Part shown: positions 1,541-58,700 of the stretch, piece by piece
Layout: every line of letters starts with the position of its first letter
How positions within the stretch are numbered: position 1 is the first letter of the stretch
NCBI GenBank assembly: GCA_029964075.1
Contig: CM057147.1
Span: 11,739,513 to 11,803,512 of the forward strand
Source of the DNA: Patiria pectinifera
Lineage: Eukaryota > Echinodermata > Asteroidea > Valvatida > Asterinidae
Direction: 5' to 3'
Length of the DNA stretch: 64,000 bases
Made by a program: the position numbers and the translations under genes
Notes under the pieces: generated by a model
What the model saw: the letters and a program-made list of their open reading frames with translations, nothing else
The model's database searches: none
Told to the model about the DNA's origin: nothing

Positions 1541-1574
1541 ATGCTAGCACTATGATTGGTTCAGATTCCAGCGG

Positions 1575-1880
1575 TTATTTTCTAGGCCGCCACAGAAGGT
1601 CGTTCTCATTACTTTGAGGGTTTGTGCTTTGTGTTGTGTAACTAATGCTATCAATATTAGACTGCAAAACCCGATTAACATCATTAACATTACTTCCAGT
1701 TGTGTAAATAATAAAATCATCAGCAAATATATTACAAATGCACTTGGAATTAACACTTTGGGTGATGTCATTAATGTACAGTAAAAAGAGAATTGGTCCA
1801 AGGACACTTCCCTGTGGCACACCAATAGAAATATCATTAGGGCTAGAAGTTTTGGCTTTCCACGTTATTTTTGGGTCATA
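1575..1880 (-). mobile_element. CR1/Jockey-like LINE reverse transcriptase fragment
   Basis: The minus strand encodes IGVPQGSVLGPILFLLYIND and FADDFIIYT, the reverse transcriptase B region and FADD active site of CR1/L2/Jockey-type LINEs. It is truncated at both ends, with no endonuclease. It lies outside any gene I can define. Confidence 0.8.
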
Positions 1881-1889
1881 AGGTTGCCC

Positions 1890-2700
1890 CGAAGTAGCTA
1901 CCAGAAGGGCAAAAATAGCCCAAAGATCAGCGTGTACCTATACATTTTCGCCACTACAGTTTTCCCTTCACCTCTGTATATTCCAAAACGAAACCACACT
2001 CCTGATATAAGCTCACATCTATCAAAACAAAAATATAAACGCACAACCTTGCAATATGCGACCTTTTTTTATTATACCCTTCTAAGTATATGTCACGATT
2101 ATCTCCAATTTAAGGAATCTCACTTTGAAAATGGTGTCCTTCCGTTTAAACGAAAAATCGGCAGATCTTATCCGCTGTTATGCACAATAGAAGAGATATT
2201 ACATTCATCGATACTTGTTTTCCTGTGAGAAACAAAATTCTCCAAACCACATTTCCAAACTACTAAAGAAAAATGCCCTAAATTGCTTATAAAAACCTAT
2301 TTAAGGGAACGAAATTAAACAAATAATGAATGACAAGAAAAGCAATGACAGTTCACGTAGTATACACTAGACTACATCAGTGACTCCTTCCACTGAGTTG
2401 TTTTATACATTACATTAATGCATGTACATGTATTGCGCCATACGCTGCAATTATCCATGTAGGACCAACTTTGTGGTATAAAAAAGCTCGCCTCTGATCA
2501 ATGCAGTCCTCGGCACGCCCTGGGGATAGGGCGCCCTCATTCGAGCGGTACTTCACTGGATTTTTTTTCTCACTTTTATCCATCGCCCTTTTTTTAATAT
2601 TAACAGGGTCCTGATTCTGATAAGTGTTGCAATTGCACTTAGGGTGGCAATTGCACTCTATGAAGAGATTCCTTCATGGAGTGCAAAACATAATAAGGAC
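1890..2700. other. Intergenic, no gene seen
   Basis: AT-rich. The longest open frame (1884-2228) shows no recognisable motif and begins inside the LINE fragment flank. Confidence 0.45.
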
Positions 2701-2717
2701 ATTGAAAAGTCACTTGC

Positions 2718-3206
2718 GAGAGTAATTAGAGCCTAAGATAGAGGATGAAATAATTCAGATTTCATAGGACGCCAAAATATTATGACAACAAACTTTCAGA
2801 GTTTACCGGAAAAAAACATTGGGTCAGAGAATATCAGATTCCTGCAGTATCCAATTCTGTTCAAATCCAATCTTACTTGTATGAGTGAGTGCTTCTATTA
2901 AAATACGGCCGCATTGTCGCAATACTAGCTAAAGATAAGATTTGTCTTCCACAGTCCAATTGTGAGAGTAATTAGAGCCTAAGATAGAGGATGAAATAAT
3001 TCAGATTTCATAGGACGCCAACATATTATGACAACAAACTTTCAGAGTTTACCGAAAAAAAATTGGGTCAGAGAAAATCAGATTCCTGCAGTATCCAATT
3101 TTGTTTAAATCCAATCTTACTTGTATGAGTGAGTGCTTCTACATGTATTAAAATACGGCCGCATTGTCGCCATACTGGGTAAAGATAAGATTTGTCTTCC
3201 ACAGTC
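2718..3206. repeat. 246-bp direct tandem duplication
   Basis: Two near-identical copies (2718-2963 and 2964-3206) start GAGAGTAATTAGAGCC and run to cttccacagtc. Only the second is followed by the GGTCGGACA satellite. No coding frame is conserved. Confidence 0.9.
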
Positions 3207-3540
3207 GGACACAATGGGTCGGACATAATCGTACGTGGGACACAATGGGTCGGACATAATCGGCCGTCGGACACAATGGGTCGGACATAATCGCCGTCGG
3301 ACATAATGGGTCGGACATTATCGGCCGTCGGACACAATGGGTCGGACATAATCGGAAGTCGGACGCAATGTGTAGGACATAATCGTACGTCGGACATAAT
3401 GGATCGGACATAATCGGCCGTCGGACACAATGGGTCGGACATAATCGCTGTCAGACAAAATGGGTCGGACATAATCGGCCCTCGCTTAAAATCTGTTGTC
3501 GGACGTAATCAACAAAACGGACATAATGGTCGTGAACATA
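3207..3540. repeat. Satellite of GGTCGGACATAATCGG units
   Basis: Alternating units GTCGGACACAATGG and GTCGGACATAATCGGCC repeat about ten times with point changes, fading out near 3540. It has no spacers, so it is a satellite and not a CRISPR array. The two overlapping minus-strand open frames here arise from the repeat. Confidence 0.88.
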
Positions 3541-4702
3541 TGTGTCATATGAAAGGTGGACTCCTATGAAAATTAAGCCATTTTTTTGTTTTTTACAGTT
3601 TTATTGGTTAAACCCGCTCACGAGACCAGTCACCTCCTAATTCAATTATATTTGCTTAGGCATGCGCAATACTATTAATGAGTTCATATTTCATAGAAAC
3701 CTAAACCATCTATAAGCCATAGAAAATGAAATGAAATCGTGTGCAAAGAGTTATTTGAACAATCTAGGATATTATTATAATAACATGCATGGACGGTGAA
3801 AGTAAATCTGCTTCCTGAAATGAAGTACTGCCTGAAGAATAAAGAAATATGAATTTCCAATTGCCCAAAAAATACTCTATTTGTGATTTATAGACAATCT
3901 GGATCACCAGATACTAGGCTTACAAATTGGAGCTGTACAGAATGTAAACGTACAGAGCACAAACACTTAAAATTTATTTTTCTAAGGTATTTTACTGAAT
4001 CTAAAAAGTTCAATAAAAACGCCCACGATAGCAACCTGTCTATGACATGCGAGCAGATTCAAATAAAGCAAAACAAGACAGGGTATTGACCACGAGATTC
4101 TGACCATTCAACGGGCATCTCCTATTGGGTCTTCAGTAGCCGGATGTTTTATTGCAAAAACATGGCAGCCAAATTGAACAACCAACAGTTAATTTGTCTA
4201 CATTTATGATCAAAATGACGTCCCAATTTCAAAAGCCGATTCCAATTGGTTGGTGTGCAGGGTCACATACAATTAGTATATTCAAATAGTATAGAGCGAG
4301 ATCCGTTTAACAACGGATGATACTCAGATTACATCCTTCTATTTGCCGTTACAATCCCCCCCCCCCAACCAAAAAAAAAATTAAAAAAAAATTAGAAAAC
4401 TGTAACATAAAGAACAAAATTAAAACTTGCTAACAAAAGAAAAAATGTTCGTGTGAACAGCACAAAGTTCATATAGCTTAATCACAGAATATTATTATTA
4501 CGCCATATATACCAGTGCAAACGGAAGCTATCGAAATAAACAAAGTGCAAAAAGCCTCTGTCCATATATGAAAACTAAGCTAGAGTAAACAGATGAAGAA
4601 TCGAGTCTCGATTTCACTTTTTTTAAAACAGTAAACAATTGTACACTTGATTTGTAAAAGAATAGGCCTAGTAAAAAGACATTACAATACACTGTGACCA
4701 GC
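3541..4702. other. Upstream region of the RTK gene
   Basis: AT-rich with C and A runs near 4350-4390. The promoter and 5' UTR of the receptor should lie here, but I can see no clear core element. Confidence 0.4.
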
Positions 4703-4751
4703 ATGGCGGCGTTATTCGTTATTACTGCGCTACTTTTCCAACATACAACAG
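4703..4751 (+). CDS. RTK exon 1: signal peptide
   Basis: ATG at 4703 opens 16 codons ([16 protein letters not shown]) ending in phase 1 at a GTAAGA donor. The stretch is short, hydrophobic and leader-like, and its phase matches the Ig exon. I cannot see a distinct promoter in the AT-rich sequence upstream. Confidence 0.75.
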
Positions 4752-7700
4752 GTAAGAGGATTTTTTAACAAAATGAAATCTTGTAAACACAATAATTTAA
4801 GGGAAACAGGCCGTTCTTGGTTAATTAGTATGATATGGCCCAAATTCTCGTGACTATTTTTCATCAGCAATTTCTAGTTTAATTTCTATCTCCTATATCA
4901 CAATTTAAAGAGCTCGTCAGGAGTGGCTGCAGGCTGCATTTTGCTAACATGGTGTATGTAGTAAACTTCGTGCAGGAAACAATAATAATACTTACATATA
5001 CGCCTCGATTTTAGAGTTTGTGCTGGTCCTATAAGGGTCCAGCCATAGGCGAAGCCAGTCGAGGGGGTATTTACATCCCAATAGTTATTAAAGACTACTC
5101 TTTTCCATTCGAGTGTCCATTCAAGCGTCCTGTCTTTCACCAGCGGTCCCCCTCTAATATTTTGAACGAGTGCCCTTTTTCGAACGAGTGCTCTTTTTCC
5201 GAACAAGTGCCCTTTTTTACCCCCAAAAATCGTGCCTTTTTGTGGCAGCGACCGTTACGAGTGCTATTTTAGTCGGAAAGGGGGTCTTAATTCCGCACAC
5301 AAGTTACGTAATAGATAAGATAAAGGGTGATAAGAAGCGATAAGAAGCTGATAAAGCGTACAATAAGAAGCGATAAGGAGGATTATACTCTTAGAAAAAA
5401 AGTACAGAATGTTGCGTAAAATTGTACTCTTTGTGGTGGTAAAAAGGGAACATATTGGTCGTCGACGGGGTAAAACGCTACGCAACAGGGGTTGCGTCAA
5501 ATCTTACTCAGTTCCTGTGTAAAACGTTTAGGCCAAAAAAAATGTCTCCGGTTTCTGGTATGCGCGCGCGTCGCTGTAGCCATGCGCGTCGGCAAAATGA
5601 AAACTTTTTTTTTTCAATGAAAGATGATGTCTCAAAACCGCCAAACTCACTGGTTTGACTGGAATCCTGCTGCTGCACAATTTTAACGTGTTTTTAGATT
5701 GGGTTATGGTTGAAAATAAGCTTTATGTGGCTTCTCTGGACTCCCATATATTTGCACTAAGTTAAGTGGGGCACCATTTGCATTCATCAGCCGACATTTG
5801 AAGCAAAAAAAATCAGGTAAAAAAAAAAAGGCCGCGTCGCCGCACCACTTTTTTGGCAAGCTCCATACCAGAAACCGGAGACTTTTTGTTTGGCCTTACC
5901 CAACATTGAGTCAAAATTCTTACCCAATGGTGTTCCGTCAAAATTGTACCAAAAGTGATCACCCTTTCGTTTGACTCCCAGGGGCAGGGGGATGGGGGGG
6001 TGGGGCTCTGACAACTTTTCTGCATAATTAATGAACCATTCCCCTCACCTGAAACCCCCCCCCGCCCCCCCCCCTCCGAAAAAAAACCCAAAACATGGAT
6101 GCTAACAAACTGTGCTGTCACGCAGGCCAAAAGACTGGTCGTGTTTGAATGTGTGTGTACATTTTGTACACGTACGAAACACACAATACACTTCGCGACA
6201 TCTTCCTCAAAATCTTCGTCTTCATTATTGACTCATGTCACTGGCCATCTGCTCATTTAAATGTTCATTTTCTCATTTCTTGCTCATCTGCTCATTTATA
6301 TGCTCATCTGTTCATTAATGAGCAGCAAAATGAGTAAAATGAGTAAACAAAAGAGCAGAAAATGAGCAGATGAGCAGTAAAATGAGTAAATGAATAATCA
6401 GATTAGCATTGAAATGAGTAAATGAGTAATCAAAAGATCAGGAAATGAGTAAATGAGTAACCTAAAGAACAGAAAAATGAGCAGACGAAGAGAAGTTTTT
6501 TTTTTTTTTGTAATTTCGCGCATGTTCGCCCTGAAAAGCACCATTTACCCCCCCCCCCCTCCCGAAAAAAAAAACACGTTTGATTTTACGATGGCAAGAT
6601 GTCCGGAGGGAAAAAAAAGTGTCCACATTTCAACATTTCAGATTTGCGAGTGCCCTTTTCAAGAATGTTTACCCCCAATAAAATTTGACCTTGCTATTCC
6701 CCTGCCAGCCCAGTATCCTCTTTATACCAACTGACTGACTAGCAGTTGTTAGCAGGCCAGTGCTATTGTACTGGTATGTATCCAAACTGTACAAAACTAT
6801 ACGTTTGGGGTCGACTTAACCGGGCTTGCCGTTTCTTGAAGGTTCATAAATTTCATAATCCATTGCAGCCTCGTCATCTCTCATGATTCTACCCGGACCC
6901 GAAGTGTTGGCTTCACCGGACACTTATGTTACTCTCACTTGCATAGTGGCCGGGGACGCAGTCCATCATGATCTAATACTCAGATGGCTCTTTGAGAATG
7001 GAGTCCGAGGTTTTTGCAATTTTTCAAGTGGGGAGTTCCCTGGGTCCTTTACGGGACAGGGAGTCTATGAGAGGCAGTGCAACCTGACAGTCGGGCCAGT
7101 AGACGATTCGTCCGTGGGTATCTACAAGTGCCAGTATTTTGACGGGGAGCATGCAGTCTCTCAAAATCTTACATTCATTATCGGTAAGTAACCACAGTAT
7201 TCAATTTGCAGGGGCGCTTAGGGAGATAAGTAATTGCATTGTGCATCCAACGCGGCTTTTTTATCAAGCTAATCTTTGCTTTTTCCCAAATGTAGAATAT
7301 AAGTTGAGAGGGGGCGCAAAAGGGGCCGGGGATTCAATCACCCCTCCCCTTAGCCCACTGAGCGACAATTTTGTTGCACTTTCAAAATTAATTTCTGTGG
7401 CCAGGAGAGGTTCTTTTAAGTGCTTAATACATTAATCCTAATAATTTCTCACCTCTTTCGGAAGTAAGAAAGTTATGTTTGTTACAAACAGTTTTGAGAC
7501 TATAACATTATAAAAGCTCAAAATCTCATCGTATGGATTACACAAATGCAAGATCTGAATGTCGTTTACTAAAAGTTGGCTATGAAGAACTGAAAAAGCA
7601 TCAAGCCACTGTCGAAATTTAAATGTGAACCTGCGTTTAATGCCAAAGTTTCTTCAGACAAATGAATAAACATGCAGTTTTAAATTTAAAAAAAAAGAAA

Positions 7701-13700: not shown

Positions 13701-16700
13701 AATAGCTGAGTTTCTCAGAGAGTTGAATTTTATGTTTTGTGAATTAGAGCACTCGTCAAGTTCTGAAAAAGACGACTTTATGCAAGAGTTCAAGACCATG
13801 TCCTCTGTCGGCCATCATGTTAATATCGTTTCCCTCTTCGGGGCATGCAAGCATCAAGGTAATGCCACCACACATTTAATGTTCAATCTCCGAGCAAAAG
13901 CAACAGGCCTAGGTTAGCCTAAGAGAAAATATCTATTGACCACATAAGTTAAAATTTCTCTGAAAGTTTAATATTCCTTACAGGCTGCAAGGGTGTAATG
14001 TAAAATTTGGACTCTATTAAATCTGGAAGCGTTGTGCATGAGTAGGTGGATATAATATTGACTACTTTATCATCAACAGTGACATGGTATGAGTCATGTA
14101 AATCTCAATAAACTTCACCTTTCATTTGTAAATCTCTGGTTTATTGATATTACCTTCTGGATAAGTTATGATAGTGAAAGTGAATATTTGCTTTGACATT
14201 TTACCCAAACAAATCATCGTTGCTTTGCTTTATACGAAACTGACACATATAAAATATACATTGTGATGCGAAACTCATTATCGTTTTCCGTAAGATAATA
14301 CTGAACAAATTCAGAGCAGAGGGTACTCTGTACACTTCCGCTTTGACCTTTCAATTATGCTGATACCTTACACAGATGTGTTGTACGTCGCCTTGGAGTA
14401 TCTTCCCTACGGTGATTTACGCAGCTACCTGCGGACGGCTCGCTCACAGTCAGACTCAGACGAGGATGCCTTGTCTTCCGATCAGCTGGTGAAGTTTGCT
14501 CTGGATGTTGCCAAGGGAATGGAACACCTTGCTGAGGCGGGGGTAAGACGATATTCCGTCCCTTGTGCCTGGCAGTACATTCATCCCGCCTGAATGGTTC
14601 TTTTCTGTAAGAAAATTATAAATATTTGCATATAAGTTCCTCTATTCTGTTTGTCATGCGGTTAAAATCCAGATACTGTGGCAACTACATATTATTTATT
14701 CTTTGTGTTGTGAGGATGGTTCCTAGATAGACAGACACATTTTCAAGGCTTAAGTAAAATAACCACAACGGGATCATTATGCCCTGGTAATATATAAAAT
14801 GTTCTGCTTTCTATTTCAGATATTAGATTATTTCTTAATATATATATTAAGCCCCCTTCCAATGATATTTTGACTAGTCATAAGTCCAACATAGTACACG
14901 CGTACGTCTACGTGATATGGTGCTGTTGGCCACGAGCTCAGAGATCAGGGCTTGTCTGACCGATCTCGCGATAATTGTTTTTATCCTTTTTGTTGAAAGG
15001 TGATTCACCGTGATTTGGCCGCGAGAAACATTCTGGTTGGAGAGGCGTTGGTTGCAAAAGTCTCTGATTTTGGACTGTCTAGAGGGGAAGATGTCTACGT
15101 GCAGATGTCATCGGTATGTAATCATTTTAATCACGTGACTTTTATATCTTGTCACACGTTAAGGTCAGTTTTTACTTCATGCAAATGCGAATGCGATGTG
15201 ATTCGACGTCATGAAGCGTTCGCTGCGAAACTCGCCAGAGTTGAAATGTGTTCAACTTTTGCGAATTTGCAGCGCGAAAAGCCCCCTGGCGTCCCAAATT
15301 TGCGTACGCGTTCGATTTCGTGCCGAATATGAAACGGCCTTTATGTGCCATGAACTGAAACCATCTCTTGTCGTTGTGGAAACATTTCTCGATGCAACAG
15401 TTTCCATTCCCTGTTCGCAGTGTTTTGGAGTACGCATCTTTATGCTGGATGGGTGATTCTACCAGCACACTTATATCTATATGTATATATAGACTCCTCG
15501 ATAATATCCAGAGCAAAGCTCTCCTCATCATCGGTGTGGCCGAACAGGAGGCAAGAGTGATTCTCAACATTCCATCTCTTCATCATAGGCGTCAAGTGGC
15601 TGCTACAACAGTTCTGTACAAGATGCACGGCAGTCTTTGTCTATCTGACTTGAAGGCTATGCTACACAGCCCTATGAGAGACGAAGTGCAACACTCTTCA
15701 GCTTGTCGACGCCCAGCCACTCACTCGCTGACCCAGTCTCTAGGACTTATTCCACTTGTAGAACTTTTATCCTCACTGTTGTCCATATCTGGAAAGACCC
15801 CCATAGTGTAGCTGGAGTAATCAAAGACAGTGGCAGTCTCTCCTTCAAAAGTAGGGTTCATCAACATCTCCTGTCAAGACATTGATTTGTAGCAAGCTCC
15901 TTATCCCTCTAAGGCTGTGAACTACTGATTGGCCCATGGAGAATTCATTTATAGTACTTTGCTGCCTATATCTGTACATGGCCATATGGTCATACTCTTT
16001 GGGCTATTGTTCACCTTAGCGTTTAAACAAAATGTAAACAAATGTACACAAAATGCAGTGTGATAAATGGTAGGCAGAATATAAGGAATCACAGGTCAAA
16101 GGCTACCCAGAGAATGGTAACCGCCATTCTTTGTTCAATGTGGTGTCGTATCTTTCTGACAGGTACCTTCTGGGTGTATTTCTTCTAAATTACAGAAGCG
16201 GGTTCCACTTCGTTGGTTAGCAATTGAGTCCGTCAGGCACAATACGTACACCACCAAGAGTGATGTGTAAGTTTGCTTCTCTGTGGTGTTACGTTAGGCC
16301 AAAAAAAAGTCTCCGGTTTCTGGTATGCGCGCGCGTCGCCGTAGCCATGCGCGTCGGCAAAATGAATTTTTTTTTTTTCAATGAAAGATGATGTCTCAAA
16401 ACCGCCAAACTCGCTGGTTTGACTGGAATCCTGCAGCTGCACAAATTTAACGTGTTTTTAGATTGGGTTGTGGTCGAGAATAAGCTTTATGTGACCTCTC
16501 TGGACTCCCATATATTTGCACTAAGTTTAGTCGGGCACCATTTGCAGTCGTCAGCCGACATTTGAAGCAAAAACAATCTGGTAAAAAAAAAAAAGCCGCG
16601 TCGCCGCACCACTTTTTTGGGCAAGCCCCATACCAGAAACCGGAGACTTTTTTTTGTTGGCCTTATTGATTTATTTTTTTTTCATTCGGATTTTTGCCAG

Positions 16701-25159: not shown

Positions 25160-26420
25160 CAACCGGTTTCGATCCAACTCGGACCCAAACCGAGTCGGAC
25201 CCAAGCCAACTCGGACCCATGCCAACTCGGACCCACTACCAACTCGGACCCACGCCAACTCGGACCCACTACCAACTCGGACCCACTACCAACTCGGACC
25301 AACTACCAACTCGGACCCATGTATGACCAACTCGGACCCATCGTTTACAATCGTTCGACAGCGTTTTCAATCATTCGACAATTTCAGAAAGTTTGTCCAC
25401 TTATCTGTTAATACAGTGATGCTGTTAAGTACATGTATAAATTTTCATTGTAGTTGTCAGGTAAAAATATCTGTATTGCAGCAGTTTGTCGTTGTGTAAT
25501 GAGCGCATTGAAATGCTATTTTGAAATGTGCTTTGCAAGTGTAATTAATTATTTATTTTTATTATTTGTTTCCATTGAAACATATTGCGCTTTAACCAAA
25601 AGTAATTAAAATTAAAGTTTAACCAATTATTCCTTTCCATATTTGACATCGTTCACGCCATCTTGCTCAATTTAACAGGAATTTATTTCATTTTTAATTC
25701 AAACCACATAAATTAAGAACAGATCTTATAGAAAAATAAAATTGGAAAGTATGACATTGAAACATGAACACTTTCAAACATGACATTATTAATTCAATAA
25801 ATATAAGTAAACATTTTAAGTCATTAAATAAAATAAATAAGGTATAAAAACGAAGTCTATTGTAATCTCTACATGTACATGTATTTAAAAACAACAACAC
25901 ATAAACACCATTGCATACACTGCAAGAAAAACGAAGGTTCCATATTGAACAAAAAAGGTTAATCAAAAAAGTATAAAAAGTTACACAGATTTGTAAAAAA
26001 AACACCACAAAATTCAAAGCCAGCATGTGAACTAAAAAAAAAAGATCAACTTATTAAATACCCTACAAAAAGATGAAATGTCAACCATCAAAAAGGAGTA
26101 TTGGAGCTCTTGGAAGATTATCCTTCAAGACCTTACAGGTAGCTGCCTGTATGATGTTCCAGGGGGGAAAGTAAGTTAATCAAAAAAGTATAAAAAGTTA
26201 AACAGATTGTAACATTAAGATGACCTATAAACATAATCTCTGAAACTAATGATTAAGTCATTGTTGGGTCCGAGTTGGTCGTGCTTGGGTCCGAGTTGGT
26301 AGTGGGTCCGAGTTGGTAGTGGGTCTTAGTTGGTATTGGGTCCGAGTTGGTCTTGGGTCCGAGTTGGTAGTGGGTCCGAGTTGGTAGTGGGTCCGAGTTG
26401 GCGTGGGTCCGAGTTGACCT
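25160..26420. mobile_element. Foldback-like element with CCAACTCGGACCCA arms
   Basis: Left arm 25168-25342 has about ten 14-18-bp units of CCAACTCGGACCCA(CTA); right arm 26265-26415 has the complementary GGGTCCGAGTTGG units. The loop between them (about 920 bp) is AT-rich and non-coding. TTCAACCT occurs just outside each arm and may be a target duplication. Architecture as in Foldback/TU elements. Confidence 0.65.
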
Positions 26421-37700: not shown

Positions 37701-40700
37701 TAAAAAATATACAGTATTATATTTTATTGGAAGATTGATCTTTCAGAAAACAATATCTTGTAGAGACTCTTACCAGTGATTTGCAGAGTAAAAGTACCGT
37801 AGCAATCAGTGCAAGGTGTATAGCTGAATTCACCGGTCTCTGTGATCACTGCTGTGCCTTGCTTGTCACTGTGACTACCAAGCTCAAAGACCAAAATGTC
37901 ATCTTCAAGATCAGTGGCCTGGAATGTGTACGACAGAGTTCCTGGAATAGAATATGAAGTATGAAAAATAACAACTGATATTCGACATTCACTACAATTT
38001 TTACTGCCAGTGCTGTGTAATATTTAGATTGTTAATTATACAGTATATTATGTTAAGTCTTAAATCAGAAAAGGTGACAAATAAATACCACATACAAGTA
38101 AAATAATACAACAGAATATTTGAGACATATTGCTATGCCATCATTCAGACAACAAATGAAGCATTATGGAAACATTTTGATTTAGTTTTTTTTTTATAAA
38201 GCTCACTTTGCTATTCGATAATCAATAGAATACAATGAAAATATAGGATGTAAGTTTCCATAAATATGGTGGAAACATTCAATTGATTGTATACGTAAAG
38301 TTACCTTCATCCTCATTCATGAACATATTCTGTACCAAGTTTGTGATAACTGGTGGGTTATTGGGGATGGCGTCTAAGACAACAGCAAATGCAAAATGAG
38401 TCTCATGGCTGAAGTATGTCGTGTTGGAAGGAACTGACTCTTCTTGCAAAGCACGCCGCTTGCGACCTGGATCTGAGGATGATGAGGCTGGAGTCTGTGT
38501 GGAACAAACCTACAACGTGAAGGGAAAACACATTGTGTAAGCCATTTGCTTATTAAAACAGATAATGACAGATATGGATCTGATTTAAAATCGTTGCACG
38601 GCGCAGTAAATTGTGGAAGGTCTCTCGCAGCGCGTGTACGTGTCTTGAAGTATATACATGTATAGTCTTGGCCACAGACTGGATTTTGGATAACGTTCCA
38701 CTATTGTAGACTGGTTCCTGCTCCCATAAAATATTGGGCAGGTAAATATCTTGCATTTACATTTAAAACGTTTGTGCGTGTATACCAAAGAGGTTGTACT
38801 TTTTTGGACACGATGTTCAAATTCTCATTCAAAAGTAAATACCATTTGAACATATTGAATATTGCACCCTTTGCTTGGACCAATCAATTGTGAATGCAAG
38901 CTTAGAGCCACAGTAAACATGAACACATGTGAATTTCAGGCTAATTTAGTGTGCCCGCTAAAAATGTAAACGAAGTGCACCATTTACTCTGTATACACCC
39001 AAGGCATTAAACCTCTGATAAATACAGCAGACTATAGAGGTCGGAATGATCTAACGGTCCCGTCCCGGAATTCCACAAGAGATCAAGTACCCAAGGCTCA
39101 TTGCATTGTGGGAATACTGATATATACAACGGGAGGAAAATTCCTCCCAGTCTATATTAATTCCACAGGGCAGTACCGGTCCCAACATCAATCAATGATG
39201 AAGGGACTGGCAACCAGTCTACCCCTTACACCCCCTCAGCAGGGACTATAAACAACCAATTTGCACTCAAACCTGAGCATTTTTAAGTAAACCTCAAGCG
39301 CACACATTACGAAGATCACAGTCAGTCAGAGTGCCGAAAATCCCAGAACTGGACTTGATTCATCTACCGCCATGGTGGGTTGTCTACACTTGCCATGGAC
39401 TGGATGCCTGGCTTGGGTGCCTGAATTGGGCCAAGACTACTTGAAATAAGGACAAGTGATCCGAGGAACTAACTTTGCCATGGTGGGATGTCTGCACGTG
39501 CCATGGTCTGGCTGCTTGACTTGGGCCAAGACTACTTGAAGTAAGAATAACCGAGTGTAATCTTTGAATTGCAAGACCAACCTGAACATTGACTTGGTTC
39601 CCATCATCAAGGTATGTAATTTGATCCACATCACTGCATGTCTTAGCTGCATCTTCCCATTGAGAGTGACCTAAACAAAGATTATGACATGATGACACTT
39701 AGATATAGCTACAATGTCTACATGTACCACAAACAACATATCTAACTTTTTGGCAAAAAAGTAGGGGGGGGGGTAATGGCTCTAAGAATAATTACAACAA
39801 ATATTGTCTGTGTAATGAATAAAAGAAGTAAGCAAATTTCAATAAAACTAGAAAATAAACCCAAAAGTAGACATCTAGTCCACCAGTCCAAAGCTCAAAG
39901 AAATTATTAAAGAGATTGATGGTTCTCAATGACAAAGGGCCTTTGAGAAATATGCTGGTAGGGTGGAAACTTCAGGTCTTTTGACTTCTTTGATGTATGT
40001 GTGTCAGGGCATTACAACTGTTCAGGAGATTGCTGCAGCAGCTATTATGTAATGCAAAATATGGAAAAAAGTAACGTACTGTATATAAATCCATCCTTGA
40101 CTTCAACAATTGAAAAGTATTTATTGACAAATTGACAACCACCACCGCTTTTTCCTTTTGTCAATGGTTGAACACAGGATGAAACTTGCATCCGTGAAAA
40201 AGGCTACCAAGTAGAGTGCAGAGACAGAACAGCACAGTTAACATCTAGGAAGTTAACCAAACAGTCCTTTTCTGGACTATCATTACTTCCAAAAGGACTA
40301 TTAAATGTCCCAGTAGATAAGTCTAGGTTTTGCCTCTGTCTAGTTCCCTGGTGTGCTTAGACTCACCTTTGTCCCAGTAGATAAGTCTAGGTTTTGTCTC
40401 TGTCCAGTTCCCTGGTGTGCTAAGACTCACCTTTGTCCCAGTAAATAAGTCTAGGTTTTGTCTCTGTCCAGTTCCCTGGTGTGCTTAGACTCACCTTCGT
40501 CCCAGTAGATAAGTCTAGGTTTTGTCTCTGTCCAGTTCCCTGGTGTGCTGAGACTCACCTTTGTCCCAGTAGATAAGTCTAGGTTTTGTCTCTGTCCAGT
40601 TCCCCGGTGTGCTTAGACTCACCTTTGTCCCAGTAGATAAGTCTAGGTTTTGTCTCTGTCCAGTTCCCCGGTGTGCTAAGACTCACCTTTGTCCCAGTAA

Positions 40701-43700
40701 ATCTAGGTTTTGTCTCTGTCCAGTTCCCTGGTGTGCTGAGACTCACCTTTGTCCCAGTAGATAAGTCTAGGTTTTGCCTCTGTCCAGTTGGTGTTATAAG
40801 ACTCACCTTTGTCCCAGTAGATAAGTCTAGGTCTTGCCTCTGTCCAGTTTCCCGGTGTGCTTAGACTCACCTTTGTCCCAGTAGATAAGTCTAGGTTTTG
40901 TCTCTGTCCAGTTCCCTGGTGTGCTCAGACTCACCTTTGTCCCAGTAGATAAGTCTAGGTCTTGCCTCTGTCCAGTTCCCCGGTGTGCTTAGACTCACCT
41001 TTGTCCCAGTAGATAAGTCTAGGTTTTGCCTCTGTCCAGTTGGTGTGCTAAGACTCACCTTTGTCCCAGTAGATAAGTCTAGGTCTTGCCTCTGTCCAGT
41101 TTCCCGGTGTGCTTAGACTCACCTTTGTCCCAGTAGATAAGTCTAGGTTTTGTCTCTGTCCAGTTCCCCGGTGAGCTTAGACTCACCTTTGTCCCAGTAG
41201 ATAAGTCTAGGTCTTGCCTCTGTCCAGTTCCCCGGTGTGCTTAGACTCACCTGTGTCCCAGTAGATAAGTCTAGGTTTTGCCTCTGTCCAGTTGGTGTGC
41301 TAAGACTCACCTTTGTCCCAGTAGATAAGTCTAGGTTTTGTTTCTGTCCAGTTCCCCGGTGTGCTTAGACTCGCCTTTGTCCCAGTAGATAAGTCTAGGT
41401 TTTGCCTCTGTCCAGTTGGTGTTATAAGACTCACCTTTGTCCCAGTAGATAAGTCTAGGTTTTGCCTCTGTCCAGTTGGTGTGCTTAGACTCACCTTCGT
41501 CCCAGTAGATAAGTCTAGGTTTTGTCTCTGTCCAATTCCCCAGTGTGCTTAGACTCACCTTTGTCCCAGTAGATAAGTCTAGGTTTTGCCTCTGTCCAGT
41601 TCCCCGGTGTGCTTAGACTCACCTGTGTCCCAGTAGATAAGTCTAGGTTTTGTTTCTGTCCAGTTCCCCGGTGTGCTAAGACTCACCTTTGTCCCAGTAG
41701 ATAAGTCTAGGTTTTGCCTCTGTCCAGTTGATGTGCTTAGACTCACCTTCGTCCCAGTAGATAAGTCTAGGTTTTGTCTCTGTCCAATTTCCCAGTGTGC
41801 TTAGACTCACCTTTGTCCCAGTAAATAAGTCTAGGTCTTGTCTCTGTCCAGTTCCCCGGTGTGCTTAGACTCACCTGTGTCCCAGTAGATAAGTCTAGGT
41901 TTTGTTTCTGTCCAGTTCCTTGGTGTGCTTAGACTCATGTTGATCATTAATGGTCCCCGCACTTCCGTCTGACCAAGACTGGTGATATAGAATGTTGGTT
42001 CATACACAAAACGTATCCTGGAATAAAAAGGAACAATGTATTTTCAATTTCAAATGGTGTTGACACACTTATTTTAGGAAGCACTTGTATCTGTTTATAT
42101 TAACATCCACAAGAAAAACAAATCAATGATAAAAGCATGCAACCAATCCGACTACGGATTTTCTGTAGGATAAACTGCACTGATATATGAACGATTGTAT
42201 CTGAATAAAGTCTGGGAAAGTTATTTGCATCAATAGTCTGCTTCCAAAACTAATGGTGCAAAACTAAGAGAACATCTTCTATATCCATGCAAGAACAAGA
42301 ACTTCAAAGACATTCTGAGACTAGTTGTAGAAAAAAATCGGGGACTACTTCTACAGGAAATTTCATTCCTAAGTACTATGGAATTTGTCTGATCTGTTTT
42401 GAAGGGAAAACACAGTGTGTAGCAAACCAACCTGTGCCTGAGCAGTCTTGATGTATACTGGATGGTGTACAGTGGATTGGTGACATAGGGTTTATAATCC
42501 CTTGCAGCATCCGATTTGAATTCCTGGTTGGTTCTATTGACATCCAGCAGACCTAGGATGAGTGAGCCACCCTGGTGTAGACCTGCAATAACACAAGTAA
42601 GGTTGGAAGTTCAGATAGTCCTCTACCACCATTGACATGTTCTGAATGTGATACAACACAGACTGGAAAGAACCGCTAACATCGAAGTGAGTGACACCCA
42701 ATGTGGCTTTGTAAGCAGTAAAGGCACAACTGATGGAATCTACCTCCTGAAAGGTGTGGCGGAATCGCACTCCGCAGGAAAACGCCCTCTCCATCTGGTC
42801 TTTGTTGACTATAAGAAGGCATTTGATTCAGTTAATCATGCACTTCTGTTTGCAAAGCTACGATATCTTGGCGTGGAGGAGGATGTGATGCGGCTACTTG
42901 AGGATCTTTACATCAACTCATATGGCAAGCTCCGGTGGAAAGGTCGGATGACAGACGAGTTTGAGACACCAGTCGGAGTACGCCAAGGCTGTCCATTGTC
43001 ACCAACACTCTTCAGCCTCTACACTGAGTGTCTCATGCAAGAGTGGTACAATCACACAGCACACCTAACGGCTCCAGATGTCAGTGGTATCCCCCTAAAG
43101 GAGATCAGATATGCTGACGACCTGGTACTGATGGCGCTGTGCAGAGCTGATGCTGAAGAGATGCTTACTACCCTGGGTGATATATCTGACGGGTATGGGT
43201 TAGCCATCCACCCTGGTAAGACTGCATATATGATCATCCAGCCAACAACCGATGACAGCACCATCACATACCGCTCGGCACAAATACCTCGTGTCAAGTA
43301 CCTAGGAGTGTTGATGGACCACACACTAGACGACAGCAAGGAGGTTCGGATGCGGTTAGGTATGGGCAGATCCACTCTTCGGCAGTGCAAGTATCTGCGC
43401 TCCCCCCGCGTCAGCCTTGAGGTAAAGGTACAGCTTGCTCGGGCCCTAGTCATATCAAGGGTACTGTATGGTGCCACCACCCTGTCGTTGAAGGCAGCTG
43501 ACATCAAACGCCTAGACAGTTTTGGCCGAACCATTTGGCGTCACCTGCTCAACATCAAGTGGCAAGATCATGTGACAAATGAAAGACTGATGGAGATGAT
43601 TGGCGACCGGTGGTGCTTCAGCAGTAGCACTGTGATGGAACGAAAGGCAGCATGGTTGGGCCCAGGCGCGGTTCTACGGGGGGGGGGGGCGGGCGGGCTG

Positions 43701-46700
43701 GGGGGGCTTTAGCCCCCCAAAAATTTTGTCTAGCCCCCCCAAAATAAATTCCGTAAAAAAAATTTGCATTAGCAAAAAGAAGGATTGTGATGTACATGTA
43801 CATGCGAACGGTCTCCCCCTAAAGAAATAGTCGTGACAAGGGTGCATTTGTAGTTAATATAGGGTGAATGATTTTAGGATTTTATTGGCGCTCCCCACTG
43901 AAAATATGGCATGAGTCCCCCACCACCTATTAATGTTCGGAGGCCTAAGTGTCTGGAGAAAATAACTGGTCTACATTTCAGCTCGCCTTCCTGAAAAAAA
44001 AAAATCTGGATCCACCCTGCTAGCCCCCCCAAAATATTGGTTCTAGAACCGCGCCTGGTTGGGCCATGTGGTTCGGCATGGCGGAATGGCGGCAGCTGTT
44101 GTGGATGGGATGCCAGTGGGATGTCGTCGCTCCGTGGGCCGGCCAAAGATGCGCTGGGTGGACAACATCCGTGAATGGTCTGGGTGTGACACCAACGAAC
44201 TGAAAGCAGCAGCACTGGAAAGACGGGCTGTGGTGGAAGTGGCGCCAGTGATCCCAACTGTGTATAATTTGAGGAGGAGACCACGGGCAAATGCCTATTT
44301 CTAACGAATGAATGAACCATTGCCAGTCCTCAATGCTAATTTTTTTTCACATGCCTAGGTGGTTAGGGTTACATTGTGATAGCGAAGCAGACAGTAGTAT
44401 ATATGGATCCCTTGCACAGTAACATCTGACATCACATCTTGTATGTGACATGCATTCCACGGGAAATATTTCCTCAGAATTGTGTTCATGATGTTTACTA
44501 TTTACGCGGTGTAATAAAACAAATACAACTTGTTTTTATCTCAGTGTTGGCTGCTTTTAATTAATTCCCATCAGGGCCCTATTTTTACGGCTCTGCTTAC
44601 CAAAGAATCCCATGCTTACGATCAGCATTCTGTGCCAACAGCACTAGCAGAAAAATGCTGGGCTAACCATGTAAGCACAGAATCCTTAGTTACAGGATGT
44701 ATATGCATATAAGCTAAAAGTTCTTGCTATCCAGTGAAATACCTTTACCATAAGTTCAGAGTTTTTTGCTACATTAAGCAGGGATTTTTCGTCAACGGTA
44801 CTAAAGCAGAGCCATGAAATTTGGCCCAGGAGGTAGTCAAATCAGTAAACACCAATGGGACCAGTCAAACCATGTTGTATAATACCTACCTCCCTTTGTA
44901 GCCACAGTGAAATCAAAGTGGTTATCTATGGCCCTCTTCCTCCTTCTCTGGCTTGTTGGTGATGTCAGAACAAGGTCTGTGCCATTAGGTGATGTCATCA
45001 TCATATCACTGTCTCCTGTTGATCATGATAATAAAAGTTCATCATGTTAAACAATCTATTACAGTAATACAAACTATTACTGATCTTTATCTGGCATTTA
45101 TTATTAAGCTGACTTGCTGCACTAAAATCCCCAAATGAAAAAGTAGTGATTTCCTGAAGACTACAATACATTGCCTGGTACCACCGAGTCTTGCAATTAG
45201 ATTTCAGATACAGGGGCTTTCCGTTAAAATTGCCAAGTACAGATTTATCTTTTTCCGTCTACCTCGGACATTGCTTTCCAGTTAAAGGATATTACTAAAA
45301 CCCTAAGGAACCATACACCGGAGAGTCAAACTGATGTTTTGTTTTCCACATGCATGCCACAATGGCAATAACCTGATATCTGGATCTCATAGTTGTGTTT
45401 GATACTGACCTAACACTGTAGTAGTTCCTGCTGATACTGTGACACATAACATAGCTGGGTTACACATCTTCATCCAGGTGTACAGGCACCTAAAATAGCA
45501 GTAAAATACAGAACAGGCACAGCAATTGTTTAAACAAGTCCATATATAGTGAAGTCCTTCCATCAAAACCCACAGTTTAAGACCACTTCTTCATTACTAG
45601 GATATGACAGGCAAACACGCGTTTATGGGCAGAGGCTTCCATAACCACATGTGTAATCACAAGTAAATGTCACATGCTTCTAGTCCAGGTCAAAGTCTCA
45701 AGTCACTAAGTTTGTAAGCGAATTATAGAAGACATTTCACATATGAACCATTTGATTTACTAATATCAAGCCCGAATCGTTAGGCCTTGTGAAACTTGTA
45801 CAGTGTAACAAGCATCAAGAAAAGCTCAGAATGCATAAAAACGACACCTACATTACACTAGACCACTTCAAGAGGGATCTTCTAACACTTACACTAAAAT
45901 TGCCTATACAGCAATTTGTGGTCCACAAAGTCTATGTACAGTGACCATGCCAAACGTTCAGACGGTGTTAAGCAGTCTGATAAAGACTTTCATCGACAGA
46001 AGTGTCATTTTATAAACCCATAAAACTAGGTTTCTTTAATTAAGTCTCGATAAAGTATCATTCTTTGTATCTAATGCAACATGGCCCACAAACTTACTTC
46101 CCAGGTTCCATATTGAACTTGGCACTCTTTTTAATCATTTCCCACTCGCTAGGGTCCTTTGGTGCCTTAAAGTCAGTGATGTTGAAACTTTCTTCATTGT
46201 CACCAGCACGGACAATGATCTTTCCATCCTCTATGGTCACTGAGCCAGAGGAGTTACCTCCAACCGCCATGCAGGGCACAACATCATCTAGGAGCGACGC
46301 TGAACTGCTCACACAGTATTCTATAGGGCAGGGAGGAAGGAGACACTGGTATGATCTGAGATACCGGGTTATCAGTGGCTGGCACAGGTAGAATTTCAGC
46401 TTTTATTTCCGATCATGTATCTAGACCTACATCTAATCTATACAATTCGCCACCTGCTTTCATCAAAATACCATTTATGTTCAAAAGGCTGGTTTTATAA
46501 AATATTTCCTCATGTTTTCTCCTCCTAACTTTTTGCTGGACCTCTGTTTTTCCATTCTTGATAGCCACACTTGAACTTGATGTTATTTTAACAGATCATT
46601 TCTTTCTCTTTAATTGCATGAATCTTGTTTTTGTTTTAGCTACCACTTCAAATGGCCTTTAGCATTGTGGTTGATAGCGTAGTCTGTAAAGGCAGGCAGG

Positions 46701-52700: not shown

Positions 52701-55700
52701 CTTTTAAACAGAAAAGTTCTAATTTTTTTTACCAAAAAAGTATTTATGAATGGGAATAAATATGTGCTTGGCCAGTGTTAAACACTATGTTCAAGACCGG
52801 TTGGAGTCTGGATGCTGATAATTTACCCTCTCCTTCAAGTCAGCATCCAGACTCAAACCGGTCTTAAACAAATTGTTAAAAACCGGCCAAGCACACATTT
52901 ATTCCTTTATTATCATCTGCAGAGTGACAAATTTGAAGATGCAGACATAACCATCACAAAAATACTGAAACTGGAAATTGTCTAGAAAACAAATCATCCA
53001 TTGAAAATGGTTTATGCCTGGCCTTACCTCTTCAAATGGCACAATATCTGTGGATCCTGCTTCTGAGCCGACACCAGCAAAGTAGCGTGAGACAGGACTG
53101 GTTCCAGCCCTGAATGGTGCTCCGTAACGACACAGATTGCTCCGATCAGGCGGCATCCTATAACAGAAGAAAGCGACAGAGTATTCTAACAATGTAATGG
53201 TTACAAATGCTGTGATAAAACCAGTAAACAACGAGACTAGGCCTCTTGAGTCAAAAACTATTTTATATTTATGTAGCAGGTTTTTTTTTATATTCCCTCT
53301 TGGAGATAGAAGGCATTTCAGAATGTGTTCTAAATCTAATTTTTATATTTAAAGGATGTAACAGGGGAACACAAAATTGGACCCCAAATTAATTGAATGA
53401 CCCATAAAAGAGGAAATAAAAAGCGCACTTTAGATACAAAAAATGTTTGAAACAGAACAATAAAGTTGTACAGACCTCAAATTTCTAAGTGTTGCTGCGA
53501 CAGCTGGAGGATTGAAGGGGTCTTGTAGCTCAGCGATGTAGCTGTCTCGATTGAAGACATGAAGGATGAGCTTAGTAGATGAGGACAGGACTGGTATGCC
53601 AGTCAGTGAAGACAGGAGTTTACCATCAACGTACACTTCAAAGGACCACTCATCCTAAAACGATAACAATCTATCATAACTGAGATTTCCATAATTTATT
53701 TTTTTTTTACTTTGAATCAAGAACATGTAACATTAAATATAATTATATAAGCTACACTAAGTACTGCTTATTATCATACTAATCATACCTGTGGGACTCC
53801 AAACCAACATTTACTGTTGCATGTGTGAAATGTTTTTAGGTGATTAATGAGGAAAACTCCAGCGCAAAGTATCCCTGCCGTGACAAATATAACGCAGTGG
53901 CCCATGAAATAGGAATTACACGTGAAAACAAAATTAAGGACATCCTCTGAGAAAATCCACAGGGAATTTAAATTTGTCACCAACAAGGATTAGAAAGTGG
54001 CTGCACATTAGCTGTTGTAACATATGTATCTATTTTATAGGATGCAAATTAGTCAGCTGACCCAAGCAAACTCTTGTCTGAGTAGATGTTTGCAAATTGG
54101 GGAAGTTCTTGATTCAAGTCCTATCCAAGCTAGTTTATGAATTTGTTCACACAAGCTCCCCGAAAGCACTGATGAGCATGTTGTTGGACAGAAAATATAA
54201 ATTCCAATGTCTGACTTGTAAAATTGATGTTCCTTAGAAGTAGCTAAAGGACTCCGGGAAGCACATTAATGGTAATGATACCTCATTTGCATCAAACGGC
54301 TCGACTCTGACGTGGACTGAGAAATGATGCTCCTCTGTTGATGGATCAAAGTCAAGATCTATAACCTCTGATGTCATTTGCCACACATCCTCCAAATAAC
54401 GACACCACAGGACAGCTTGAGATGCACTACCATCTAGAAAAGAATAGACAGCCTCTGTTTCAAATTATTGATGGCAATTGTCCCTAAAGTCTAATTGTAA
54501 CTTGTATCTTCCATCTTATGTCCCACAGTTGGACATGTCCCAAAGTTGGACATGTCAGACATAAATCACAGCTGTGATTGGTCAGAACACCATGAGGTGG
54601 GGCTCAATGGATCGGTCTATTATCTTACTTGGATAGAGTTGGAAATGTCTGACATAAATCACAGCTGTGATTGGTCAGAACACAAGGGGCGGGGCTCAAT
54701 GGATCAGTCTATTATCTTACTTGGATAGAGTTGGACATGTCTGACATAAATCACAGCTGTAATTGGTCAGAACACCATGGGGCGGGGCTCAATGGATCAG
54801 TCTATTATCTTACTTGGATAGTGTTGGACATGTCTGACATAAATCACAGCTGTGATTGGTCAGAACACAAGGGGCGGGGCTCAATGGATCAGTCTATTAT
54901 CTTACTTGGATAGAGTTGGACATGTCTGACATAAATCACAGCTGTAATTGGTCAGAACACCATGGGGCGGGGCTCAATGGATCAGTCTATTATCTTACTT
55001 GGATAGAGTTGGACATGTCTGACATAAATCACAGCTGTAATTGGTCAGAACACCATGGGGCGGGGCTCAATGGATCGGTCTATTATCTCACCTGGATAGA
55101 GTTGGACATGTCAGACATAAATCAGAGCTGTGATTTGTCAGATCACCATGTGGTGGGTTCAATGGATGGTCTATTATCTTACTTGGAGAGAGTTGGACAT
55201 GTCAGACATAAATCACAGCTGTGATTGGTCAGAACACCATGAGGCAGGGCTCAATGGATCGGTCTATTATCTTACTTGGATAGTGTTGGACATGTCAAAC
55301 ATAAATCACAGCTGTGATTGGTCAGAACACCATGGGGCGGGGCTCAATGGATCGGTCTATTATCTCACCTGGATAGAGTTGGACATGTCAGACATAAATC
55401 AGAGCTGTGATTTGTCAGATCACCATGTGGTGGGTTCAATGGATGGTCTATTATCTTACTTGGAGAGAGTTGGACATGTCAGACACAAATCACAGCTGTG
55501 ATTGGTCAGAATACCATGAGGCAGGGCTCAGTGGATCGGTCTATTATCTTACTTGGATAGAGATTGACATGTCAGACATAAATCACAGCTGTGATTGGTC
55601 AAAACACCATGGGGAGGGGCTTAATGAATCGGTGTATTATCTTACTCGGATAGAGTTGGACATGTCAGACATAAATCACAGCTGTGATTGGTCAGAACAT

Positions 55701-58700
55701 CATGGGGCGAGGCTCAATGGATCTGTCTATAATCTCACTTGGATAGAGTTGGATGCCGCACGCTCTCTGTGATGTCCATCTCCCACTCTCATCATCAGAC
55801 ACACTGTCCCCATCTTCGTCCTCTTTGTGGATAGTCCATGGGACAGAACCCATTGGTGTCATTGAAGTACTATTCACATTGGTCACTTCAGTCTCTTCAG
55901 TCATTTCACTGACTGTGTACTCATTGCGTGGTGTGGTTTCCTGTGACCTATATGTGGTGCTGGCAAATGTTGAGCTGTCCTCAGATGTCCCCAAGAAATC
56001 CAGGCAGTCACACAGAGGACACAAAGACTGTTGAAAAGTAAAAGGTCTAGCATAAAAAGTCAGTAATTATTTGTAAAAACAATATTTTTGGTTTGGACAC
56101 TCCAATGCATTTCTGCAGACCCACTGGTACATTACCTACCTTGTGCACACGGATGGAAATATTCAAATGTGTTTATATAAGACTGTAAGGTGATGTACGC
56201 AGGGCACATGATGTGCTCGGTGGAGTCCATCAGTCTGTCAGACACAAACTTATGAAATATGACAGTCATCAACCAATGAAATTTCACAATCTTAAAACAT
56301 TGTAAAAGAAAAAAAAAATACTGTTGCAGTCATACCCCCTCTATCTGGTTGCCTCACTTACCTGGTTGAAGGGTTGGTCATAACAGCACTGACAGATCCC
56401 TTCTTGCCAGTTCTCCCGTCCACCAAAGTCATATTCCCCTATTGCTCCATCCGGGCCATCCCAGAACAGAATGCTGGTCACACTGTGCAGGTCAGGTGGG
56501 GCAGCTTTCAAGTCAAACTATCATTTCAAAAAAAAAAGGTAGTGGAAGTCTACAGGGGTACTTGGCATAGCAGGTCATTTCCACTGTGTGTACATTTGTT
56601 GTATGTGACGTGAGAGTTGAAGCCGTCATTCAGTCTTTGGTTGAGTCTTTGGTTGAGTAACAAGCTTTTTACAACTGCAAGGAATTTCTTCGTCTCTGGT
56701 TATCAAGTTGCATGCCTGCCTTATATGTGACTGATGAATAATTTGGTAATGAACAACTCTGGTATTCAGAATAAAATCACGATGGAAAAACAACCAGAAA
56801 TTAAACATACTAAGTATAAAAGAAAATGTACATGAAAACAGAAATAAAAATGAATTCAATAGCCTTTATTCACACATTGAAATGAATTCAAATTGAAGCA
56901 AATTCTGTGCAGGAACTGTTGAGGACATCCTGGATGATATTACTGATTCACATGCATTAATCACGCCACTACATGTCATGGCTGTGGGGGGCTGATATCA
57001 CAAGGTTTCTGGCAGAGTACTGACCTCATATTCCGAGCTCCTTACAATCTGTGCATTGGTGACGTAGGCTCCAGACAGCATACGAGGCCCTCTTGTATCT
57101 CTCTCCATAATCAGCATCACACTCTCATCAGATGCATGAACCTGGTTATCAACAGCAATGGGGTTAAAATGAACGGGTCCTGAGATGTTTGCTTGAAAAC
57201 ACCTCAGGATTTTCTATTGATAAATAAATACATATACTTAAATATTTCAAGATTTACATGGTGAAGTCAATAAAAGGTGAAATTAGCATTGACACTGTGT
57301 GAAAATATATCTCGTTAGTGAGCATTGTGTGTTTCAAGTTAGTGTTTAGGGATCCAACTTTCACACATCTGTGCTTTAATGCATCCAGCTCTAGACTACA
57401 TATAGTCCACAACTTTGTTGGAATTTAGCAGTCTCCAGATGAGAAACAGAGTTTACTGATCAAAAGATTATTCTTGTAAGAAGGTATTTTTGGGTTACTC
57501 TAAGAAATGGAACAATGGTGTCCCACATGTCCAGCATTATTTGACAGTGTACCACAAGAAAAATTCTTGAGAGGAGAGATAATAGATCAATCCGCTAAGC
57601 TCGCCCTATGCACATTTGACCAATCACAAACATGAGTAAAGTCCAACATGCATGCACAAATGCTGGACATGCGTGCACTTGCATATGATGTGCACATTTA
57701 GTTCGTGAAGTGTGCTATTGGAGAAGCTCACATGATGTTGCGTATGTGTGCAGTGGTTGGGGCTTAACATGTTAATCCAAGCGCAATACAGTCGTACGTA
57801 GCCCACAACTCAAAATGTAAGGTTGAGTGCATGTGCAGTGTGTCCCACATATTGAGCCTTATAGTGAGTGGTCGCAATATCTTCTGTTCCCCACTGAGTC
57901 CATACTTTTACTATCAGAAAGTTTCTTGAGCCTACCTGCTGTGACTGATACTCCAGGTCCCACTTCTCCCTCTTCATGTTCCAGAGTCCCTTGAAGTCCA
58001 TCGCTGACCACTGTGGATCAGTGAAGGGAATGTCTCTCAGTGGACAGGGTGGGCCCTCTGGGTTGGGCAAGTGTAAGATTGTGCCTGTAAAAGTCAAGTC
58101 AATATGAATTAATAGATTTAAAATTGTAATAAGGACGTTAGATACTGCCCGTTTATGAATCTTATAGACTCTGGGTAAACGTCCCCTCACTGATGAAAAG
58201 ACAGAGACATGACAGCAATATTGTAGTCGAGTCATGTAATATGTCGAGTCACTTTGGTTGACTCCGAGTCCAAATCTCAAGTAATTTGGCTCGAATCCGT
58301 CTTCGAGTCCTATTCTGACCCCAGCTGTTTGAGTTTCAAAGAGCTAAAACATGAAGCACGCAAACTGCAAAAAATGTGTAACATCCACAAAACCAAAGTG
58401 GTACACATATCTATGGCCATATCAGCACAACCGCCTATAGGCCTATGCAGGGATCTAGCCGTAGTCGCAGCCAAACCGTCAGTTCAGAGCGGAAATCGCT
58501 CGTTCATCATCAACCATTGCCTAAAGCAGCACAGAATACCAGCATTATATATAATCTTAGTGTTGTACCCAATAATGATCTTGCAGTAATAGGTCCATCG
58601 ATGTGATGAATGCATGAAAGCATGTTTACTCAAAGCTTGTACAGTGGGTGTGTACATGTAGTATACGTGTATGTAGGCCTATGCATTGTATGAAACGGAT

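Follow-up and report, generated by a model that had tools for sequence, protein, structure and literature searches.

The window, a 64,000-nucleotide stretch of the Patiria pectinifera genome (C19:11739513-11803512), carries a predicted minus-strand gene for which our gene finder assembled a phase-consistent exon chain running from ~58 kb to 31 kb. Two tandem arrays lie within this gene, a 64-bp repeat at 40306-41937 (−) and a 93-bp repeat at 54544-55753 (−). Several exons of the gene model are probably wrong, most notably the ones that overlap the reverse-transcriptase ORF (42636-43712, +), and a membrane-spanning exon at 32196-32104 that was present in the first gene model was absent from the second. 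When segments of the gene were searched with Pfam, only Big_9 rose above its cut-off (25.3 vs. 23.6, in a spliced segment); EGF-like and cadherin-like matches fell below theirs. Rfam returned nothing for the window at gathering cut-offs, the spliced segment gave three PDB matches with E values of 0.13-1, none of them convincing, and the one exact pattern searched for in viral contigs was not found there.

TRF delimited the first array at 40306-41937 on the minus strand, with a period of 64, 25.9 copies, 91% matches, and a score of 2641. Splitting it at the donors yielded an exon copy that starts at 41938 (AAC|ATGAGT), followed by 25 donor-bearing units, the last incomplete, whose donors run from 41874 to 40366. 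Each of these 25 downstream units carries a splice signal, GTGAGT in 24 and GCGAGT in one (at 41374). The 25 complete units, counting the exon copy, are 64 bases long in 18 cases and 60 bases long in seven. The array begins within the exon at 41937 and extends 1.57 kb into the intron, spanning the exon-intron boundary, and the last 63-64 bases of the exon constitute its first copy. An earlier sequence-only reading of this DNA had proposed some 25 tandem 5′ splice sites made from one exon end, as near-perfect GTGAGT donors, and on both points our unit split agrees with it. Its estimate that the unit copies the last 48 or so exon bases was too short.

On a hand-set metazoan donor matrix, the 24 GTGAGT donors score 12.2-12.9. 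A score of ~12.2 is reached by 4 of the 3796 other GT sites on the minus strand of the window, and 1 of 1000 shuffles of the unit gave an equally good donor. Among ten other tandem units scored in the same way, the 93-bp unit reached 7.2 and the remaining nine did not exceed 3.9. We also considered whether donor-bearing units might be a general property of minisatellites in this genome, an idea that we rejected: in a small sample of 18 arrays (period of at least 20 and at least 2.5 copies) from 200 kb drawn from 20 places, none carried a donor scoring ≥9, the best reaching 7.0.

The exon in which the array begins (41875-42017, −) is 143 nt long and has an acceptor score of 11.8; one base finishes the preceding codon, and the exon ends in phase 1. 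A single open frame of at least 40 residues (42043-41831) covers the whole exon, and the next coding exon (GHSQWEDAAKTC...; 39582-39670, −) continues that frame as ...LIYWDT-GHSQWEDAAKTC..., bearing out the earlier suggestion that the donor at exon end 41875 fits the frame. This donor, which we call donor 1 (CAG|GTGAGT, 41869-41877, −; intron start at 41874), is the only one in the array from which the frame stays open into the next exon. Use of any of donors 2-25 would place the added unit in another frame and lead to the same TAG, 14 codons beyond the exon end. Read-through past donor 1 had been predicted to shift the frame and then to meet a TAG in the second unit; the stop is there, but the first added unit already contains it, ahead of any effect of the frameshift. 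The same reading held that a single base separates exon from donor (ATGAGT vs. GTGAGT). The A/G difference is real, with A preceding TGAG in the exon of all six array-bearing gene copies described below and G in the array-free copy L014 (GTAACA), but the A also lies immediately outside the repeat as delimited by TRF and may simply mark the repeat edge. A G at that base would create a donor within the exon.

A search of the 613.5-Mb genome with a 218-base query, in which only the best candidates were scored so that the paralog list is a lower bound, located at least 13 paralogs in which the exon, the donor position, and the next exon recur. At least five of these lie on C19 and carry the array, and at least eight lie on C16, match the query over the exon only, and are array-free. 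The acceptor AG of the exon is homologous in 13 paralogs and the frame is open in 12; the next exon is preceded by an AG in each and is 76.7-96.6% identical over the 65-89 aligned bases. With the copy in the window included, all 14 copies have the donor GT of this exon end and the next-exon AG at matching positions (the exon of L021 is one base shorter), and both exons are open in 13, L021 being frameshifted. Since the position of the exon-intron boundary is shared by 13 paralogs, we take it as fixed, and the paralogs lend independent support to the predicted exon, donor 1, and next exon.

The copies with and without the array differ in several respects. The array holds 25 donors in the window copy, 17 in L009, 53 in L010, 21 in L011, 23 in L012, and 10 in L013; this range of 10 to 53 is one among six paralogs. 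In L010, the array is split by a stretch of ~4.6 kb that itself holds a 42-bp array of 21 copies. The exon-end donor scores 11.9-12.9 in the six array-bearing copies vs. 2.7-8.1 in seven of the eight without the array (L021 was left out), and the intron measures 1883-8605 nt with the array vs. 134-651 nt without it. Five array-bearing introns are 1.9-2.2 kb long and the sixth is 8.6 kb long, compared to 397 nt in the array-free sister copy L014. The frame via donor 1 is open in all six array-bearing copies.

A midpoint-rooted tree was built from 168 columns, comprising the next exon and 79 exon bases that do not belong to the repeat. It grouped the six array-bearing copies into a clade (99/98) and joined this clade to array-free L014 (100/99). 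The array-bearing copies being a single clade beside an array-free copy, the array would most simply have arisen once. We then compared the donor word of L014, AAGGTGAATAG, in which the exon ends as AAG|GTGAATAG, with the array edges. In L010, the last unit gives way to AAGGTGAAGAG, which agrees with the L014 donor at 10 of 11 bases; among 38,230 11-mers in seven copies, the L014 donor word is matched at 10 or more of 11 bases only at these two places, in L014 and in L010. Related sequence with a damaged donor lies at the array ends of L009 and L013, and the far edge is rearranged in L011, L012, and the window copy, where the 3′ array edge (40298-40311, −) reads GGGACA|TTTAATAG and, when set against L010 and L014, no longer has a readable displaced donor. 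The putative ancestral donor is thus readable in one paralog and partly so in two more. By this comparison of array edges, the old donor is located past the final unit, and donors within the array correspond to junctions between an exon end and the start of an exon tail.

We propose that, in the common ancestor of the six C19 copies, the last 64 bases of the exon were duplicated in tandem. The duplicated stretch would have run from within a donor-like word (TGAGT or GTRA) to the exon end, such that every copy junction joined ...AAG to GTGAGT... and formed a near-perfect new donor. As the array lengthened, the old donor would have been carried along to its distal edge, where it decayed. The first new junction would have coincided exactly with the old exon end and, because the first new splice signal fell where the old one had been, the protein would have been left intact: splicing could have shifted to that junction with exon length, phase, and protein all kept. 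Later duplications of blocks of units, some including the exon copy, may then have enlarged and reshuffled the arrays in the separate gene copies, and the remaining donors would be tolerated passengers. Splicing via donor 1, moved to the first new junction, is the most likely outcome. The sequences themselves show the array, the clade, the displaced donor of one copy, and the conserved frame; use of donor 1 and toleration of the other donors are inferred. We consider the account as a whole, a minisatellite grown from an exon end that displaced the donor, with donor 1 in use and the rest carried along, to be highly probable. The L014 exon differs from the unit start (GTAACACTCAG vs. TGAGTCTAAG), and for this reason sequence may have passed between exon and array, in either direction.

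The proposed later growth of the arrays is visible in part. In the window copy, units 4-7 repeat units 0-3 with 3, 3, 1, and 1 differences, from which it follows that the exon copy belongs to the duplicated block. The match at this four-unit spacing was reached by 12 of 5000 shuffles; the seven other spacings between one and eight units were not unusual. Across the six loci, the nearest unit lay in the same locus for 48% of units vs. 20% in shuffles (0 of 500 as high; the comparison covered the 150 units, out of 156, that had few gaps). Mean unit distances nevertheless differed little within and between loci, and within-locus distances were not below those between loci in L010 (9.4 vs. 7.6-8.1) or L013 (6.1 vs. 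5.5-6.3). With distances this similar, the data bear out a separate growth of the arrays only in part.

If the spare donors served as regulated decoys or as a switch, they would bind U1 and compete with donor 1, and the length of the array would determine how many transcripts, in proportion, carry a premature stop. The U1 duplex energies predicted for the donors, -10.7 or -12.2 kcal/mol in 24 of the 25 (-6.3 for the GC donor), fit such a role, as does the read-through stop 14 codons past the exon in five of the six array-bearing copies. The donors themselves, however, appear to be under no special constraint. Over units 1 and onward in the six copies, the donor columns show no extra conservation, 19 of 64 circular windows being equally low or lower, and the array in the window taken alone gives the same result (22 of 64). 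Among the 143 downstream donors of the six copies, GT is kept in 126, and the score is ≥9 in 107 and <9 in 36. Donor 1 scores ≥9 in 6/6, a difference from the downstream donors that is not significant; with 75% of all donors intact, an intact donor 1 in all six copies would be no surprise.

Nor is the premature stop a property of all the arrays. When 150 unit starts were tried as donors, nine left an open frame into the next exon, namely the six donors 1 and three in L013; two of the downstream donors of L013, at +60 and +186, keep the true frame. Truncation, as predicted from the sequence, is a consequence of unit length and frame and is not common to all copies. The amphioxus arrays discussed below are also said to leave splicing undisturbed (PMC3087553, PMC3902484). 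The suggestion of the sequence-only reading that the array is a run of decoys or a switch is not supported, given the unremarkable donor conservation, the 36 weak donors, and the open frames of L013, and we regard such a function as improbable. Because variation in the donor columns is on a par with that elsewhere in the unit, we read donors 2 and onward as passengers.

It is conceivable that the array masks itself, each donor GGUGAGUCUA pairing with UAGACUUAUC just upstream across a 12-base loop and thereby hiding the spare donors. Predicted donor openness in a consensus array was indeed low, with modest statistical backing, at 0.12 vs. a shuffle mean of 0.33, with 7 of 400 shuffles as low. 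Donor 1 is predicted to be equally masked (0.06-0.09), however, so the choice of donor would go unexplained, and the other donors did not change when donor 1 was held open. The second array showed no such effect (81 of 200 shuffles as low), and both arms are nearly invariant, which leaves no covariation to count. Masking therefore seems to us very improbable.

Our gene finder suggested another use of the units: it built four in-frame mini-exons of this type (GNWTETKPRLIYWDK and similar) into the exon chain, of which three measured 45 nt and one measured 105 nt; in L013, the frame-keeping donors at +60 and +186 could similarly support a 20-residue extension. The finder had been retrained on its own output, though, which contained those very units. 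The acceptors in question lack a pyrimidine tract and score 3.4-4.6, compared to 3.4-11.8 in twelve model acceptors, and neighboring mini-exons would leave a 19-base intron; we find this reading scarcely credible. The mini-exons are missing from the second gene model, which proves nothing, as the array acceptors had been removed from it by hand. Misassembly is common in tandem arrays and the copy number could be wrong, but the units differ from one another and are organized in blocks, and arrays of the same sort but of different length occur at five other loci, making an assembly artifact hardly believable.

The second array (54544-55753, −) comprises 13 copies of a 93-bp unit by TRF and unit split, each carrying CAA|GTAAGA, CAG|GTGAGA, CAA|GTGAGA, or CGA|GTAAGA. 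In the gene model, it begins with the last 14-15 bases of an exon at 55739-56027 (−) and is followed by an exon at 54282-54433 (−) that is phase-consistent but known from the model only. As in the first array, only the first donor keeps the frame. Two later donors (CAG|GTGAGA, 11.3) outscore it (7.4), so the first donor, if used, is not used for its strength. A donor in such a unit is not unusual (247 of 1000 shuffles), and banning it carried no cost to the gene model, in which an alternative exon end at 55787 scores the same. Among the best 40 of 792 candidates scored, exon 56027-55739 recurs at five other places on C19 (near 11684953, 12639931, 11280779, 9856281, and 9770675), most of which have part of the array start and some of which have further units. 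In an array-free copy at C16:10760723-10761025, the match (69%) runs only six bases beyond the exon end, stopping at query position 295. Some 70 bases of the 93-bp unit (query 298-367) are part of a repeat scattered across many contigs. From the window alone, the second array is only a probable second case of an exon-end array.

How the spliceosome chooses among many equal donors is usually studied with artificial duplications. This gene family offers natural material, with ~150 donor positions in six gene copies, eight array-free controls in the same genome, and a pre-duplication donor still visible in one copy. It also outlines, in concrete terms, how an intron can grow longer and exchange its donor with the protein unchanged. 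A bolder generalization, which we think unlikely, is that exon-tail duplication is a working and recurrent route of donor replacement and that changes in array length within an individual make read-through isoforms vary from cell to cell. If it were true, a tandem copy extending from a donor-like exonic word to the exon end would renew and strengthen a donor with the frame untouched; the process would be recurrent, given that the same gene family has a second donor-bearing array at exon end 55739; and arrays that changed length within individuals would yield read-through isoforms differing between cells. A more practical consequence is a warning that gene finders may call such units exons, as ours did.

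Among the matches listed in the open-access literature, we found nothing on this gene or on such a displacement of a donor. A related process is intron gain by tandem duplication (the Rogers model), described for potato RdRp (PMC4974935). There too, duplicating coding sequence in tandem gives rise to a splice site where the copies meet; here, however, the intron pre-existed, was lengthened, and had its donor replaced. Intron gain at a previously intronless position does not fit, the intron being present at the same place in 8/8 array-free copies. Introns of amphioxus VCBP3 are described as holding whole exons or parts of exons, some of which carry canonical splice sites, beside the coding exon (PMC2632668). 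They resemble the present case in having exon pieces with splice sites inside introns, but the accessible text does not describe those pieces as minisatellites and uses neither that term nor mirage. The parts of the huntingtin and VCBP literature covered likewise contained no mirage.

The closest counterparts are the amphioxus "mirages," minisatellites on exon-intron junctions reported for Adh3, the globins BflGb6 and BflGb9, PGBD5, troponin C, and other genes (PMC3087553, PMC3902484). The earlier statement that minisatellites covering 5′ exon-intron junctions had been described in amphioxus is therefore correct. Mirages and the present array share tandem units across the exon-intron boundary, many with splice signals, and lengths that differ between copies. 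The array described here has more copies than the counts given for BflGb6 (3 and 6 units) or PGBD5 (up to 7 × 60 bp and 6 × 108 bp) in the same two papers, and its unit is apparently purely exonic. Array-free and array-bearing copies moreover coexist in one genome, providing a before and an after. On these features, the array matches a large member of the mirage kind, one in which the putative ancestral state can still be seen.

The predicted gene that carries the 64-bp exon-end array contains a second array of this type at 54544-55753, in which a 93-bp unit is repeated 13 times with a donor in each unit, and part of the 93-bp unit is made up of a dispersed genomic repeat. At L010, a C19 paralog locus with an exon-end array of its own, the sequence that splits that array harbors a 42-bp array of approximately 21 copies (L010:5094-5979; gene strand 3923-4808). 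Among the C16 paralogs, the exon is frameshifted in the copy L021 but not in its close relatives L017 and L019.

An open reverse-transcriptase frame (PF00078, E 4.8e-27) was found at 42636-43712 (+), 0.6 kb from the array exon and on the opposite strand. Elsewhere in the window, an ORF at 14997-15332 (+) contains the motifs HRDLAARN...DFGLSR and resembles a tyrosine kinase.

Other tandem arrays were also observed. In L041, a stretch sampled from C19, positions 1-5814 consist of a 152-bp array of 38 copies that is cut by the stretch's edge. Two 17-bp minisatellites within the window, at 25174-25321 and 26286-26416, are separated by 1 kb, and the unit of one is the reverse complement of the other's, an arrangement like that at the ends of mobile elements.
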